Program-made: the position numbers and the translations under genes
Assembly (NCBI GenBank): GCA_016866355.1
Contig: VGMN01000008.1
Location: forward strand, 30,066 to 94,065
DNA: 64,000 nt
DNA from: Bacteroidota bacterium
Lineage (GTDB): Bacteria > Bacteroidota > Bacteroidia > Chitinophagales > Chitinophagaceae
Direction of reading: 5' to 3'
The notes under the pieces: generated by a model
Databases searched by the model: none
The model's input: only the letters and a program-made list of their open reading frames with translations
What the model was told of the DNA's origin: nothing
Shown: positions 26,819 through 34,907 of the stretch, piece after piece
How the letters are laid out: each line of letters opens with the position of its first letter
How positions within the stretch are numbered: the first letter of the stretch is position 1

Positions 26819-26900
26819 CCGGATGTGGTGAAATTGGTAGACACGTCAGACTTAGGATCTGATGCCGCAAGGTTTGGGGGTTCGAGTCCCTCCATCCGGA
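26819..26900 (+). tRNA. tRNA-Leu (anticodon UAG)
   Basis: An 82-base cloverleaf. The acceptor arm is CCGGATG (26819-26825) pairing with CATCCGG (26893-26899), with discriminator A at 26900. The anticodon arm is TCAGA-CTTAGGA-TCTGA with anticodon TAG at 26853-26855, decoding CUA/CUN leucine. A long variable arm (TGCCGCAAGG) marks class II, as expected for Leu, and the T-loop TTCGAGT is present. CCA is not encoded. The trigger factor gene begins 23 bases later. Confidence 0.95.
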
Positions 26901-29720: not shown

Positions 29721-30962
29721 ATGGCAAAGAACACCCTGCATTGTGCTTTTTGTGGACGTAGTCGGGACGAAGTAAAAATTTTGATAGCCGGACAGGAAGG
29801 GCATATCTGCGAAAACTGTGTTGAGCATGCCCGTGAAATCATTGGTCAGGAACTGACGGCCAAGGAGGAAAAAGCAAAATCCTCTTTCAAGTTAACGGTC
29901 AAGAAGCCAATTGAAATAAAAAAGTTTTTGGACGAATATGTGATTGGACAAGATGATGCCAAAAAAGTTTTATCCGTAGCCGTTTACAATCACTACAAGC
30001 GTCTACAACAAAAAAATGCAGAGTCCAAAGAAGCAGAGATTGAAATTGAAAAAAGTAATATTGTAATGGTGGGCGAAACAGGCACCGGTAAAACCCTGTT
30101 GGCCAAAAGTATTGCTAGACTATTAAATGTTCCGTTTGCTATTGTAGATGCCACCGTTTTTACCGAGGCTGGCTATGTAGGAGAAGATGTAGAAAGTATC
30201 TTAACAAGATTACTACAGGTATGTAATTACGACGTAGCCGCTGCCGAACGTGGTATAGTATACATCGATGAGATAGACAAGATTGCACGCAAGGGGGATA
30301 ACCCTTCCATCACAAGAGATGTAAGCGGTGAAGGTGTCCAACAAGGGATGCTCAAATTATTGGAGGGCACAGATGTGCTGGTACCCCCGCAAGGTGGTCG
30401 CAAACATCCTGAGCAAAAGTTAATTAAGATAAATACACAGAATATTCTTTTTATCTGTGGAGGCGCTTTTGATGGAATCGATAAGGTTATTGCACGACGT
30501 GTCCAAACCAATACCATCGGCTTTAATGTGGACAAAGAATTACAAGAAAGTCGTCAAAAAAATCTCTTACGCTTTGTCAATGCTACGGATCTAAAACAAT
30601 TTGGGCTTATCCCTGAATTATTAGGAAGACTACCCGTGGTCACACACCTGGATCCGCTGGATGCTCCTACCCTTCGGTTGATTTTGACCACTCCTAAGAA
30701 TGCATTAATCAAACAATATACCCGTTTATTTGAAATGGAAGGCATCAAACTAACCATCGAAGAAGGTGTATTGGACTTTATGGTAAATAAAGCCATGGAA
30801 TACAAATTGGGCGCCCGCGGTTTGCGCAGCATCTGTGAAAGTATTTTAACTGACGCGATGTATGAATTGCCCTCGGCCGCTGTCAAACAATTCCATTTGA
30901 ATCTAGATTACACACAACGTCACTTTGAAAAAAGTACCATCAATTTTTTAAAAGTCGCTTAA
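29721..30962 (+). CDS. clpX: ATP-dependent Clp protease ATP-binding subunit ClpX
   Basis: ClpX is the AAA+ unfoldase that feeds substrates to ClpP. The 413-residue protein has a C4 zinc-binding domain (C8, C11, C30, C33), Walker A GETGTGKT (about 113-120), Walker B VYIDEIDK, the pore-1 loop region (GYVGEDVES) and sensor 2 (GARGLRS). The ClpP-docking loop region lies near IGFNVD. It directly follows the two ClpP genes. Confidence 0.96.
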
Positions 30963-30972
30963 TAAGCAACCT

Positions 30973-31116
30973 ATGCAAGAACTTATCGATAAACTCAAAG
31001 CAGAAGCGGGACTTACTGACCAACAAGCAACACAAGTATTATTAATCTTAAAGGATTACGTTGCTGAAAAATACCCGATGCTAGCTGGCATGGCAAAGAA
31101 TTTCTTTGGGAAATAA
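30973..31116 (+). CDS. 47-residue small protein downstream of clpX
   Basis: An uninterrupted ATG-to-TAA frame of 47 codons starts 11 bases after the clpX stop. It encodes MQELIDKLKAEAGLTDQQAT, then a helix with VLLILKDYVAEKYPMLAGMA, ending KNFFGK. It reads as two amphipathic helices with helix-capping GLTDQQA, a pattern seen in small conserved Bacteroidota proteins of unknown function. Co-transcription with clpX is likely. A direct role in Clp proteolysis, for example as an adaptor, is speculation from position only. Confidence 0.68.
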   Translation: MQELIDKLKAEAGLTDQQATQVLLILKDYVAEKYPMLAGMAKNFFGK

Positions 31117-31128
31117 CCTTCGCAATTA

Positions 31129-31194
31129 CATTTCAACGAATCATACTTTCCTCGTCATAGTCTGTTGCTCATTTCAGCGGATCATACACTCCTC
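31129..31194. repeat. Pair of imperfect 25-base direct repeats
   Basis: Copies at 31129-31153 and 31170-31194 share the pattern CATTTCA-R-CG-R-ATCATAC-NN-TCCTC (21 of 25 bases equal), with a 41-base period. The pair is framed by CTTCGCA (31118-31124) and its complement TGCGAAG (31195-31201). Confidence 0.65.
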
Positions 31195-31308
31195 TGCGAA
31201 GAAATAAAAAATTGAGATAATAAGAATCCTACATAAAAGGAAGGACCTTGCTTCAAATTTAAAACCTTAGCTGATTTTAATTTCTTTATTCCTTGGCCTG
31301 TTTTTTTC

Positions 31309-31478
31309 ATGCATACTAACGAGGCATCGGTAAAATAAACGACGGCTTTGCCGAAAGTGGGTTGATGATGAGCCCATAGAAGCCGGCGCTGTTTGAGGCC
31401 CGAAGGGCCGAGTTCGCCGGCTTCGGGCGAAACATAAACCCACTTAGTTTATTTTATCGCAGCCAAGGGAGTATGCAT
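31309..31478. repeat. Nested palindromic element (REP- or MITE-like)
   Basis: Five matched arm pairs nest inside each other: ATGCATACT (31309-31317) with AGTATGCAT (31470-31478); TAAAATAAAC (31331-31340) with GTTTATTTTA (31447-31456); AAGTGGGTT (31355-31363) with AACCCACTT (31437-31445); GAAGCCGGCG (31379-31388) with CGCCGGCTTC (31415-31424); and GGCCC-GAA-GGGCC (31397-31409). A side hairpin CGGC-TTT-GCCG sits in the left arm at 31342-31352. The central part is GC-rich, unlike the surrounding AT-rich spacer. No coding frame fits. A mobile or REP-type repeat is most likely, though a structured RNA is possible. Confidence 0.75.
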
Positions 31479-31507
31479 AAAAAATCCCGTCGATGAAGAC
31501 AGGATTT
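31479..31507 (-). terminator. Rho-independent terminator after nrdJ
   Basis: On the minus strand, AAATCCTGTC pairs with GACGGGATTT (one G-T wobble) around a six-base loop and is followed by six Ts (A run at 31479-31484). It begins 26 bases after the nrdJ stop. The T run directly abuts the outer arm of the palindromic element. Confidence 0.85.
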
Positions 31508-31532
31508 GAAATAAAGCAATCGTTAGTTAAAA

Positions 31533-34500
31533 TCAACCACACCCACCCTGGTTGCCACAGTTATTACACTTGTAGCAAGCACCGCTACGCATCATGATGT
31601 TACCACATACATTACAAGCCGGCGCATCGCTTTGCATATTCTTAGCCACGGCGTTCATAGCATCAAATGCAGATTCTACTTTTTCAACCTTTGCAGCCTT
31701 AGGCGCTGTTGATTTAGCAGCCGGAGTGGCACCTGGCGTAATTCGTACGCTGGAAAGCTCAGGCTCCTTTGCATATTCTAAAGGATTGGAGGGAACTTCA
31801 TCCCAATCATCCGCACCTGTGTTAAGCACTTCTGGCTTGTCTAATACATGCACCAGATCCGTACGTCCGAGATACTCATAACCAAGCACACGGAAAATAA
31901 AGTCAACGATAGAAGTTGTGGTTTTGATATTCGGGTGCTCAACAAATCCAGACGGATCAAAGCGAGTGAATGCAAACTTGTCTACGAACTCTTCGAGCGG
32001 TACCCCATATTGTAGTCCAATCGAAACGGCAATCGCAAAACAGTTCATCATACTACGCATGGTAGCACCTTCTTTGGCCATGTCCACGAAAATTTCACCC
32101 AAGGTTCCATCGGCGTATTCTCCGGTACGGAGGAATACCGCTTGGCCACTGATCTTAGCTTTTTGCGTAAATCCACGACGCTTAGCAGGAAGTGTACGAC
32201 GCTCAACAATCTTTGCCAAACGACGCTTCAACTTGGTATCGGGTGAAGACTGTACACGTTTTTGTACTTCATCAAGCAACTCTTCAACAGTCAGTTGACC
32301 TAGATCAACAATATTTGTTCCCGCAAGATCAGCGGCAGGTGCTGCTGTTTCAGCAGTAGCTCCAGCGTCTGTTTTCTTTTTCTTATCGCTCTTGTTGCTG
32401 AGTGGCTGAGAAAGTTTAGAACCATCACGATAAAGTGCGTTCGCCTTTAAACCCAATTTCCAGCTGAGGTAATACGCATCGGCAATATCTTCAACCGCTG
32501 CTTCATTTGGTAGGTTGATGGTTTTAGAGATAGCACCACTGATGAAAGGCTGTGTAGCACCCATCATACGGATGTGACCGTGTGCATGAATATAACGCTG
32601 TCCTTTTTGACCACATTTATTGGCGCAATCAAACACAGGCAGGTGTTCTTCCTTAAGACCAGGAGCACCTTCGAGCATCATAGTACCGCACACGTAGTCG
32701 TTTGCAGCTTCAATTTGTTCGTCACTAAATCCTAATGCTTCGAGTAGACTCCATTCAAAATCATTGTACTGCTCAGGAGTAAATCCAAGACGCTGCAAGC
32801 ACTCCTCGCCAAGCGTGTATTTGTTGAATACAAATGCAATTTCAAATGCAGTCAGCGCTGCCGCATCCAAACGCTTGATCTCATCGGCAATAAATCCTTT
32901 CTCACTTAGAGATTGGTGATTGATAAATGGAGCACCAGCAAAAGAAGCCGCACCAACGGCGTATTTGATAATACTATCTGTTTCTTTCTCCGTGTAACCG
33001 AGATTCTTCAAGGCAGTAGGAACAGACTGGTTGATGATTTTAAAGTAGCCACCACCTGATAATTTTTTAAACTTCACCAAGGCAAAGTCAGGTTCAACTC
33101 CTGTAGTATCGCAATCCATTACCAATCCGATGGTACCGGTTGGAGCAATTACAGTTGCCTGCGCATTGCGGTAACCATACTTCTCTCCATATTCTACTGC
33201 CTCATCCCATGCTTTGCAAGCCGCTTTCAATAAATAATCAGGGCAATATTTTGCTTTCAATCCTTGTGGCTTCAAACTTAATCCTTCGTAATCGTCAGCA
33301 TCGTAAGCGGCCAAGCGGTGATTGCGCATTACACGCATCATTTGCTTTTTATTTTCCTCATAGCGAGGGAAAGCACCCAAGATTTTGGCCATCTCTGCAG
33401 AAGTGCGGTATGAAATACCCGTCATGATAGCCGTCAATGCACCGGCAATAGCGCGGGCTTCTTCACTGTCATAAGGAATACCGCTAACCATTAGCATGGT
33501 TCCAAGGTTGGCATACCCTAATCCCAATGTGCGATATTCATAACTGAGTTGTGCTACTTCCTTAGAAGGGAATTGCGCCATCAACACAGAAACTTCCAAT
33601 ACCACTGTCCACAAGCGAACATTGTATTCATAACCCTCTACGTCAAATGTATTAGTAGTGGAATCATAGAATTTCATCAGATTAGCAGAAGCCAAGTTAC
33701 AAGCCGTATTGTCCAGGAACATATATTCTGAACAAGGGTTTGAGGCACGGATAGGACCTCCTTCAGGACAAGTATGCCACTCATTGATGGTGGTATTGTA
33801 CTGGGTACCAGGGTCGGCACAACGCCATGCCGCATAGGCAATCTGATTCCACAACTCACGAGCTGGTACTTTCTTCATCACACGACCATCTTGTCGTGCT
33901 GTTAATTCCCAATCCTCGTCTTTTGCTAGTTTTTCAAAAAATGAATTTGGGATACGAATGGAGTTATTAGAATTCTGACCGCTCACCGTACGATAAGCCT
34001 CATCCTCATAACCGGAAGGATAACCAGCTGCAATCAGCGCACCCACTTTCTTTTCTTCTTCTACTTTCCAGTTGATGAACTGTACAATCTCCGGGTGATC
34101 CAGATCCAAACAAACCATCTTAGCAGCACGACGCGTAGTTCCACCACTCTTGATTGCACCAGCAGCGCGGTCACCGATTTTTAGGAAACTCATCAAACCA
34201 GAGCTACTTCCACCACCACTTAATTTTTCACCTTCCCCACGAAGATTTGAGTAGTTGGTACCTACACCTGATCCGTATTTGAAAATACGTGCCTCACGAA
34301 CCCAGAGATCCATAATACCACCCTCATTTACCAGGTCATCGTCCACACTCAATATGAAGCAGGCGTGAGGCTGCGGACGCTCATAGGCATTTTGAGACTT
34401 TTTTAATTGACCATCTACTGGATCTACATAATAGTGCCCCTGTGGTTTTCCAGCAATACCATAGCTCTCAAAGAGGCCCGTATTAAACCATTGAGGGCTG

Positions 34501-34907
34501 TTAGGCACACACATTTGGTCCAAGATGGAATAAGCGAGTTCCTCATAGAACACTTGTGCATCATTGGAAGAGGCAAAGTATCCATACCGTTCACCCCACA
34601 CTCTCCAGCAATTGGCCATACGATGCGCTACTTGCTTTGCAGAGGTTTCACGTCCTGTTGTTCCATCAGGTTGCGGAACACCAGCCTTGCGGAAATATTT
34701 TTGTGCTAAAATATCGGTAGCAATCTGACTCCATTGTTTGGGGACCTCTACGTTGGTCATTTCAAAAACAACTTCACCGGAAGGATTACGAATCACTGAT
34801 GTGCGATAGTCATACTCAAACTGATCAAACACATTCACATCATCACGGGTGAAGCGGCGACGGAACTGCAATCCGCTGGTAGCGTTTGCTTGCTTCTTGC
34901 TGGGCAT
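31533..34907 (-). CDS. nrdJ: Vitamin B12-dependent (class II) ribonucleoside-diphosphate reductase
   Basis: NrdJ reduces ribonucleotides to deoxyribonucleotides using adenosylcobalamin to generate the active-site thiyl radical, so it needs no oxygen or small subunit. In the 1124-residue protein the NxCxE catalytic triad is N388-C390-E392 (NPCSE). C183 (HACFILS) is one redox cysteine. The C-terminus ends in a cysteine cluster (CNVCGN, CYKCNNCGNQGGCG), the zinc-ribbon-like tail of long NrdJ forms that carries the reducing thiols. Coenzyme would come from the adenosyltransferase at 4.6 kb. A hairpin lies in its leader. Confidence 0.96.
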   Translation of the reverse strand: MPSKKQANATSGLQFRRRFTRDDVNVFDQFEYDYRTSVIRNPSGEVVFEMTNVEVPKQWSQIATDILAQKYFRKAGVPQPDGTTGRETSAKQVAHRMANCWRVWGERYGYFASSNDAQVFYEELAYSILDQMCVPNSPQWFNTGLFESYGIAGKPQGHYYVDPVDGQLKKSQNAYERPQPHACFILSVDDDLVNEGGIMDLWVREARIFKYGSGVGTNYSNLRGEGEKLSGGGSSSGLMSFLKIGDRAAGAIKSGGTTRRAAKMVCLDLDHPEIVQFINWKVEEEKKVGALIAAGYPSGYEDEAYRTVSGQNSNNSIRIPNSFFEKLAKDEDWELTARQDGRVMKKVPARELWNQIAYAAWRCADPGTQYNTTINEWHTCPEGGPIRASNPCSEYMFLDNTACNLASANLMKFYDSTTNTFDVEGYEYNVRLWTVVLEVSVLMAQFPSKEVAQLSYEYRTLGLGYANLGTMLMVSGIPYDSEEARAIAGALTAIMTGISYRTSAEMAKILGAFPRYEENKKQMMRVMRNHRLAAYDADDYEGLSLKPQGLKAKYCPDYLLKAACKAWDEAVEYGEKYGYRNAQATVIAPTGTIGLVMDCDTTGVEPDFALVKFKKLSGGGYFKIINQSVPTALKNLGYTEKETDSIIKYAVGAASFAGAPFINHQSLSEKGFIADEIKRLDAAALTAFEIAFVFNKYTLGEECLQRLGFTPEQYNDFEWSLLEALGFSDEQIEAANDYVCGTMMLEGAPGLKEEHLPVFDCANKCGQKGQRYIHAHGHIRMMGATQPFISGAISKTINLPNEAAVEDIADAYYLSWKLGLKANALYRDGSKLSQPLSNKSDKKKKTDAGATAETAAPAADLAGTNIVDLGQLTVEELLDEVQKRVQSSPDTKLKRRLAKIVERRTLPAKRRGFTQKAKISGQAVFLRTGEYADGTLGEIFVDMAKEGATMRSMMNCFAIAVSIGLQYGVPLEEFVDKFAFTRFDPSGFVEHPNIKTTTSIVDFIFRVLGYEYLGRTDLVHVLDKPEVLNTGADDWDEVPSNPLEYAKEPELSSVRITPGATPAAKSTAPKAAKVEKVESAFDAMNAVAKNMQSDAPACNVCGNIMMRSGACYKCNNCGNQGGCG

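Follow-up and report, generated by a model that had tools for sequence, protein, structure and literature searches.

A dispersed DNA repeat family with one copy found in a Chitinophagaceae genome: the nested palindrome between clpX and nrdJ

The clpX-nrdJ spacer and its palindrome

The window, by which we mean the whole stretch of 64,000 nucleotides that was analyzed, contains clpX on the + strand (29721-30962; models NF003745 and TIGR00382), followed on the same strand by a small ORF of 47 amino acids (30973-31116) that is kept in relatives and has no match in Pfam. The convergent neighbor on the - strand is nrdJ (31533-34907), identified by family models as encoding a class II (B12-dependent) ribonucleotide reductase. 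From the stop codon of the small ORF (31116) to nrdJ, the spacer measures 416 nt, and its convergent, intergenic character had been recognized correctly in the first-pass annotation of this DNA. It also contains a segment of 44 nt (31206-31249, + strand), outside the palindrome described below, that is 86% identical to the last part of a ParE-like gene at its 3' end. In the relative G023, the ParE-like gene is intact at the same place as a pair of ORFs (620-874 and 867-1166 of locus L075), the second of which matches PF05016 (ParE_toxin) with an E-value of 4.8e-15.

RNA fold prediction for the spacer yields a nested palindrome (31302-31484, without strand assignment) that comprises 68 pairs, and its left arm bears one side hairpin. 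The folding energy of -91.5 kcal/mol compares with a mean of -52.4 (sd 4.5) for shuffled sequences (z -8.75), and none of 200 shuffles equaled it; the opposite strand gave a z of -8.97, and calculation with DNA folding parameters one of -9.43. The nested arm pairs and side hairpin that had been read from the letters are thus present, and so is the unusual base composition of the element, whose centre (31350-31435) has a GC content of 0.62, compared with 0.35 in the left spacer and 0.43 in the window.

The outermost arms are formed by runs of T and A (31302-31307 with 31479-31484), and pairing thereby reaches slightly beyond 31309-31478, into the flanking T run and A run. They enclose the left outer arm ATGCATACT (31309-31317) and its right partner AGTATGCAT (31470-31478), the left arm GGC (31323-31325, paired with 31462-31464), and the left arm CGGTAAAATAAAC (31328-31340, paired with 31447-31459), all given as on the + strand. 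The right partner (31447-31464) of the arms in 31323-31340 is followed by CAGCC, which also stands at the right end of other members of the repeat family described below. The side hairpin CGGC-TTT-GCCG (31343-31353; pairs 31343-31346/31350-31353) follows within the left arm, and then the inner left arms (31355-31375), which pair with 31425-31445 in three blocks (31355-31363/31437-31445, 31365-31367/31433-31435, and 31372-31375/31425-31428). At the centre, the core stem GAAGCCGGCG (31379-31388, paired with 31415-31424) carries the loop strand TGTTTGAG (31390-31397), the apical hairpin GGCCC-GAA-GGGCC (31397-31409; pairs 31397-31401/31405-31409), and the second loop strand CGAGTTC (31409-31415), from which the right arms extend over 31415-31464. 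Two single pairs complete the fold. An alternative fold of the centre had also been proposed, and GCCCGAAG (31398-31405) is indeed complementary to CTTCGGGC (31421-31428); this fold reaches only -75.0 kcal/mol, however, 16.5 kcal/mol worse than the nested one, and its pair probabilities round to 0. The idea of a structured RNA with two states fails on this energy difference, and the near-absence of G-U pairs from the core stem, detailed below, also speaks against an RNA helix.

The right outer arm adjoins an A run, which on the strand of nrdJ is the T run downstream of that gene. To this extent, the earlier statement that the arm abuts the T run of the nrdJ terminator stands, but the terminator-like hairpin beside the palindrome was recognized by eye, and a simple scan of 30900-31700 listed 0 terminator-like sites.

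The element in its own genome and in close relatives

The genome from which the window derives (G000; 1.76 Mb in 36 contigs, 96% complete) contains one strong match, the element itself; the other four matches at E <= 10 are pieces of 14-19 nt. Among 57 other genomes in our first search of relatives, long homologues were present in two, both in the clpX-nrdJ spacer: G033 (query 2-191, 86% identity) and G006 (query 33-189, 88% identity). G017 contributed two short core pieces (E 6.5e-6 and 4.2e-5). The search for copies suggested in the first-pass annotation thus yielded none further in the genome itself, whereas relatives that share the gene order have retained the arms.

For a wider view of this spacer, we used the nrdJ end as a query, which found matches in 40 of the 41 genomes of the genus; 30 of these were taken as loci, to which L006 of G033 was added. 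Of the 30, the spacer was cut out in 23, and in the 7 where the small ORF was unrecognised, the 300 nt beside nrdJ were read. The covariance model R1 (see below), run with filters off on 31 nrdJ-side loci of the genus, gave four matches of 62-75 bits (G000, G006, G033, and G023), all of which are also training rows of the model, and nothing further above 13 bits. The G023 element so matched has different arms. Spacers of 60-96 nt in G003, G011, G017, G034 and others are devoid of the palindrome, yet the 96-nt spacers of G003 and G011 contain sequence that resembles the right flank of the window element; they represent either empty sites or deletion remnants. Because these palindrome-free spacers carry right-flank-like sequence, the proposed insertion of the element beside the nrdJ terminator is plausible only. 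Neither a target duplication nor a clean empty site was established for the window copy in the clpX-nrdJ spacer.

We compared the orthologues with the 71 pairs predicted in 31296-31500. In G033, 61 pairs are unchanged, 4 are changed on one side and 4 on both sides while still paired, and 2 are broken; in G006, 49 are unchanged, 2 are changed and paired, 6 are broken, and 14 are gapped because the left outer arm has been lost. As judged by eye, the terminator-side outer arms read ATGCATACT/AGTATGCAT in G000, GCTTGCATgAT/ATtATGCAAGC in G033, and GCCTTTTgCTG/CAGtAAAAGGC in G023; they differ between the species yet stay complementary in all three. This matching reflects either selection on pairing or copying within the palindrome.

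Further palindromes occur in the same spacer. A second nested palindrome with other arms is whole in G023 (L075) and present as a piece in G033 (L006); in G006 (L076), its left end seems, by eye, to be fused to the window-type element at a common AAAATAA. In the nrdJ spacer of G016 (L082), another large palindrome, whose centre is different, has outer arms of 19 nt next to the nrdJ terminator-like hairpin (also by eye); R1 gave no match above 13 bits for it.

A dispersed family with a conserved core

The palindrome belongs to a dispersed family of nested-hairpin DNA repeats, of which no further copy was found in its genome. The internal loop of the family, TGTTTGAG opposite CGAGTTY, is almost invariant. 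A search with the whole element by BLAST beyond the genus had returned short pieces at chance level only; the family surfaced afterwards, and solely through motif searches, which found the core centre at other places and in other genomes, and through a covariance model. A loose motif, TGTTTGAGN{3,32}CGAGTTTG, matched in 24 of 298 genomes of the order, and was dropped as evidence of spread since a reversed-pattern control also matched many genomes. The core consists of a stem, TGTTTGAG, a small hairpin, CGAGTTY, and the returning stem. In the window copy, which is itself a training sequence, we find a paired stem of 9, a G on the 5' side of the loop facing a Y, and both TGTYTGAG and CGAGTTY; the R1 match (31370-31431, + strand) scores 72.8 bits, this copy being L001, one of the 16 training rows. 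In an alignment of 22 copies (A1), TGTYTGAG and CGAGTT are conserved while the flanking stem varies, and exceptions to the loop letters are rare (e.g., L172, L173, L181, and L185). The apical hairpin varies in length across the family.

The alignments were assembled from 32 rows that had passed a stem filter. Left out were L046, L048, L054, and L055 (by eye, as likely chance matches), the doubtful L072, and the near-duplicates L125, L127, L131, L136, L139, L144, L146, and L149 from G204; L036, L056, L057, and a second L155 row were added. A1 is also without L134. The 16-row training set of R1 (A2) is without the single-base-bulge rows L051, L056, L057, and L064 and without two L157 rows similar to other Ramlibacter rows. 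Most training rows had passed the stem filter, and the later alignments A3 and A5 were fitted to R1, so that the pairing percentages given here lean upward.

The core stem is a helix with double changes across the family. In A2, 91.1% of the cells are paired, compared with 31-42% in slid structures, and 42 cells are changed on both sides compared with 12 in shuffles. A3, which comprises 30 R1 matches from 26 sources (25 distinct rows, the window included), has 96.0% paired cells (slid controls, 33.5-55.3%) and 109 cells changed on both sides against 35 in shuffles. Two of the five covariation measures in A3 are not clear of the shuffles: pairs with a both-sides change (10 versus 9.2, a value of 10 being reached in 171 of 500 shuffles) and further pair types (31 versus 27.3, with 23 of 500 shuffles reaching 31). 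A5, drawn from the second group of genomes introduced below, is paired in 93.0% of its cells (slid, 25.7-58.9%), with 53 changed on both sides versus 12 in shuffles.

A pattern of 26 letters from the window centre, run against 84,980 species genomes, matched five contigs: the Bacteroidota MAG records SXWI01000110.1 and CAIRNW010000319.1, and three contigs of a single Ramlibacter MAG, a member of the Pseudomonadota whose contigs have 65-67% GC. This MAG contains 6 copies by motif and 16 by R1 among its best 17 candidates scored, and three of its copies were used to train the model. R1 matched the core at E <= 1e-3 in 23 of the 395 genomes of Bacteroidota, G000 included. In the family of the Ramlibacter MAG (our second group), 123 of the 299 genomes had such a match, that MAG, a training source, included; by chance, about 0.4 genomes of 395 and 0.3 of 299 would be expected if the rough calibration holds. 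The best 13 candidates per genome were scored in the former set and the best 17 in the latter. Copy numbers reach at least 12 in G655, at least 9 in G075 and in G351, and at least 7 in G346. By eye, all 17 second-group loci inspected, out of 19, display long nested arms and the same loop letters, in most cases with a GC hairpin beside the core, and L218, L225, and L227 have a T/A-rich hairpin tail. In 11 of the 19 loci, there is another copy on the opposite strand at a distance of 205-258 bp, and these head-to-head pairs are all arranged with the left copy on the - and the right copy on the + strand (11/11). The presence of one core in two phyla likely reflects common descent or transfer, convergence on the loop letters being the alternative.

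Copies are mostly extragenic, 27 of the 30 examined lying outside ORFs of >= 100 amino acids. The flanking ORFs are convergent for 7 copies, tandem for 12, and divergent for 2, while 3 copies lie within ORFs and 6 have no call. The window core found no match in plasmid or phage collections, nor did two second-group copies in plasmid collections. In IMG/VR, a strict pattern matched 0 contigs and a short pattern 29, of which 12 are matched by R1 at E <= 0.001 and a further one at 0.0096; the comparison pattern, fully specified, is not a fair control for the short one. Such matches lie on contigs classed as viral (L265, L266, L269, L272, L275, L287, L290, and others), so that phages or prophages may be vehicles of the family. 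The G655 contig stretch L194 (1-20000) carries six copies and a contig-edge piece among genes; the seven of these genes scanned with PHROGs include one match to a phage head maturation protease and one to a tape measure protein.

Mobility, alternative explanations, and wider meaning

A record of movement comes from G204, in which one copy used as the query gave at least 51 BLAST pieces among the best 40 of 157 candidates scored. Here, the palindromic module stands in at least three different flanks. One of these contexts is bounded by the ends GGGTGCGGCTCC and GGAGCCGCACCC, both found in 8 of 30 loci at a distance of 301-342 bp; they form terminal inverted repeats with the module inside. An exact 8-bp target duplication surrounds 5 of the 8 two-ended elements (one offset by a base), another has a 9-bp duplication with one mismatch, and 2 are ambiguous. 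These duplications indicate movement of the module, if perhaps only as a passenger; since it also occurs in other flanks in G204, they may be those of a host transposon with the module as mere cargo. Tandem copies about 300 bp apart were seen in G346 (L208, 14719-15408) and G655 (L194, 277-925). The arms of the window copy exist but are not common to other copies.

BOX elements of Streptococcus are, like the present family, mosaics of modules around a stable fold. Among described repeats, REPs are 20-50 nt palindromes preceded by GTAG or CGTC, and REPs and REPINs are described as dispersed, mostly extragenic imperfect palindromes with conserved unpaired stem bases that form inverted pairs and mosaics (PMC8266576, PMC3733652). 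The present family has all of these latter traits. Unlike REPs so described, however, the element is 180 bp long, about four times longer, and by eye its foot has no abutting GTAG or CGTC tag; the CGTC at 31488-31491 is part of the terminator-like stem of nrdJ and also occurs in the palindrome-free G003. The conserved loop of the family lies near the tip. Many copies per genome, as in REPs, are found in some other genomes of the family but not in G000, with its single copy. MITEs are described as having no ORF, terminal inverted repeats, target duplications, and a stable stem-loop (PMC10969869); the window element shares the lack of an ORF and the stem-loop, and the G204 copies the inverted repeats and 8-bp duplications. 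It is the internal core, not the ends, that is common across genomes in our family, and the outer arms differ from genome to genome and partly from copy to copy, which is unlike MITEs. The nearest printed repeat that we saw in the literature found is the beta-proteobacterial repeat element BRE, reported to be about 90 bp long, GC-rich, and dispersed, as a rule in intergenic positions, in some cases with several elements per locus, and tandem with few or no bases between (PMC3110155). These elements are known from the Comamonadaceae (PMC3110155), the family to which Ramlibacter belongs in the NCBI taxonomy. By this description, our family resembles BRE in being dispersed, GC-rich, usually intergenic, and sometimes present several times per locus, and differs from it in that BRE has about 90 bp and the close tandem arrangement. 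In Rfam, no family matched over the element at its gathering score, the only match in the window being a tRNA (26819-26900); other loci, scanned with an E-value limit, gave scattered matches, all below the gathering scores. Examples are drum near the L012 copies (32.5 bits against a cut-off of 43), which was rejected as too low in score and not at the core, and Flavo-1 (34.3 bits against 42), away from the element. Our literature searches, which covered accessible article texts and included exact core spellings, listed no description of the core.

The REP-associated transposase for which a check elsewhere had been suggested in the first-pass annotation was not found: a search of G000 for PF01797, the REP transposase family, gave 0 matches. 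None of the 10 genomes searched in that round from the taxonomic family of the window has PF01797, not even G007 and G257, in each of which a pattern had found two copies; a single PF01797 gene is present in G075, which belongs to this taxonomic family too, and 5 of 6 further Bacteroidota genomes with copies have PF01797. In the second group, PF01797 is present in 17 of 20 high-copy genomes (of 21 with >= 10 R1 matches; G905 was left out) and in 16 of 20 no-match genomes (taken among those listed, of 176), and is absent from the high-copy genomes G990, G808, and G962, and from G337. We therefore rejected PF01797/RAYT as the mobilizer, as it is absent from the window genome and has no link to copy number. 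A classical REP mobilized by RAYT, or a REPIN, is thus a very improbable identity for the element, even though its dispersed imperfect palindromes, head-to-head pairs, and tandem and mosaic arrangements recall such elements; its length and untagged foot set it apart from them. The view of the element as a REP- or MITE-type mobile repeat, by contrast, fits at the level of the family, with dispersed copies and covarying arms in other genomes, and is only partly supported in the window genome, given its single copy, the missing PF01797, and the missing REP size and end tag.

Could the conserved fold instead act as RNA, in trans or as a passenger of transcripts, with the core and, in other members, interleaved hairpins 3' of it as the functional parts? 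Its covarying stems and conserved loop letters would be in keeping with this, as would interleaved inverted repeats of the form CTTGAT..GTTCTTTTTG..ATCAAG..CAAAAAGAAC, which lie 26-38 nt 3' of the core (e.g., in L165, L170, and L172); an H-type pseudoknot-like tail of this kind was scored in 15 of 30 Bacteroidota copies (32 were given, 2 being too short to score) compared with 42 of 600 shuffles. No such tail, however, is found in the window copy or in its G033 and G006 orthologues. An RNA helix is expected to tolerate G-U pairs better than other mismatches, but in the core stem G-U is rarer than mismatches: A3 has 210 Watson-Crick, 2 G-U, and 10 mismatch cells (n=222), and A5 has 226, 2, and 11 (n=239) without the poorly paired column 11, or 228, 16, and 24 (n=268) with it. 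This scarcity leans towards a constraint on DNA and hence a DNA palindrome. The Watson-Crick-only pattern holds more for the core stem than for whole arms, where the effect is weaker: in predicted whole folds, the G-U share is 9.8% for 20 Bacteroidota copies, compared with 16.9% for their shuffles, and 6.1% for 17 second-group copies, compared with 9.5%; it was 11% in five tRNAs, a number too small to serve as a control. Copies between tandem ORFs follow no orientation rule (7 antisense, 5 sense), Rfam gave no match at gathering score over the element, and promoter-like sites in 30900-31700 are at chance level (2 versus 1.9). We therefore regard a structured RNA as unlikely. A hairpin kept in cis to end or insulate convergent transcription of the clpX operon and nrdJ would fit the convergent genes, the adjacent terminator-like hairpin of nrdJ, the very stable fold, and the other palindromes in the same spacer of G023 and G016, but we judge it improbable: on the + strand, the stem is not followed 3' by the T run of an intrinsic terminator, the scan gave 0 terminator-like sites, several relatives manage with short palindrome-free spacers, and only 7 of the 30 family copies lie between convergent ORFs compared with 12 between tandem ones.

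The window element is, in our opinion, probably a fixed and slowly decaying relic of a non-autonomous REP/MITE-like repeat whose folded single strand would be recognized by a putative enzyme. This enzyme, which would not be of the PF01797 family, would act on the hairpin in its folded, single-stranded DNA form, as may arise in lagging-strand synthesis or upon extrusion, and the internal loop would be its recognition site. The window copy has presumably lost its mobility. Copying within the palindrome during replication may be what keeps its outer arms matched, and in its present place the element may, as a side effect, also stop or pause convergent transcription.

A broader reading, which we offer tentatively as a possibility, makes the window copy a member of an undescribed, cross-phylum superfamily of hairpin-borne mobile DNA. 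Its putative enzyme would read a mismatched 5x5 loop (TTTGA / GAGTT) near the tip of the folded single strand and leave the arms free to change as long as they pair; the core could thereby have spread among Bacteroidota and, within the Pseudomonadota, in the Ramlibacter lineage, while the copies of each genome look unrelated by sequence. Taken alone, the window copy is an ordinary relic; it is the family that deserves attention. In practical terms, the core covariance model finds copies that plain similarity search missed here, and copies break assemblies, as a copy lies within 300 bases of a contig end in 8 of the 20 stretches fetched around matches. Bacterial short interspersed repeats have mostly become known genus by genus, and REPs are tied to one transposase family. 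The same loop letters in two phyla, the covarying arms, and the missing tie to PF01797 suggest a second, unnamed way of spreading folded DNA.
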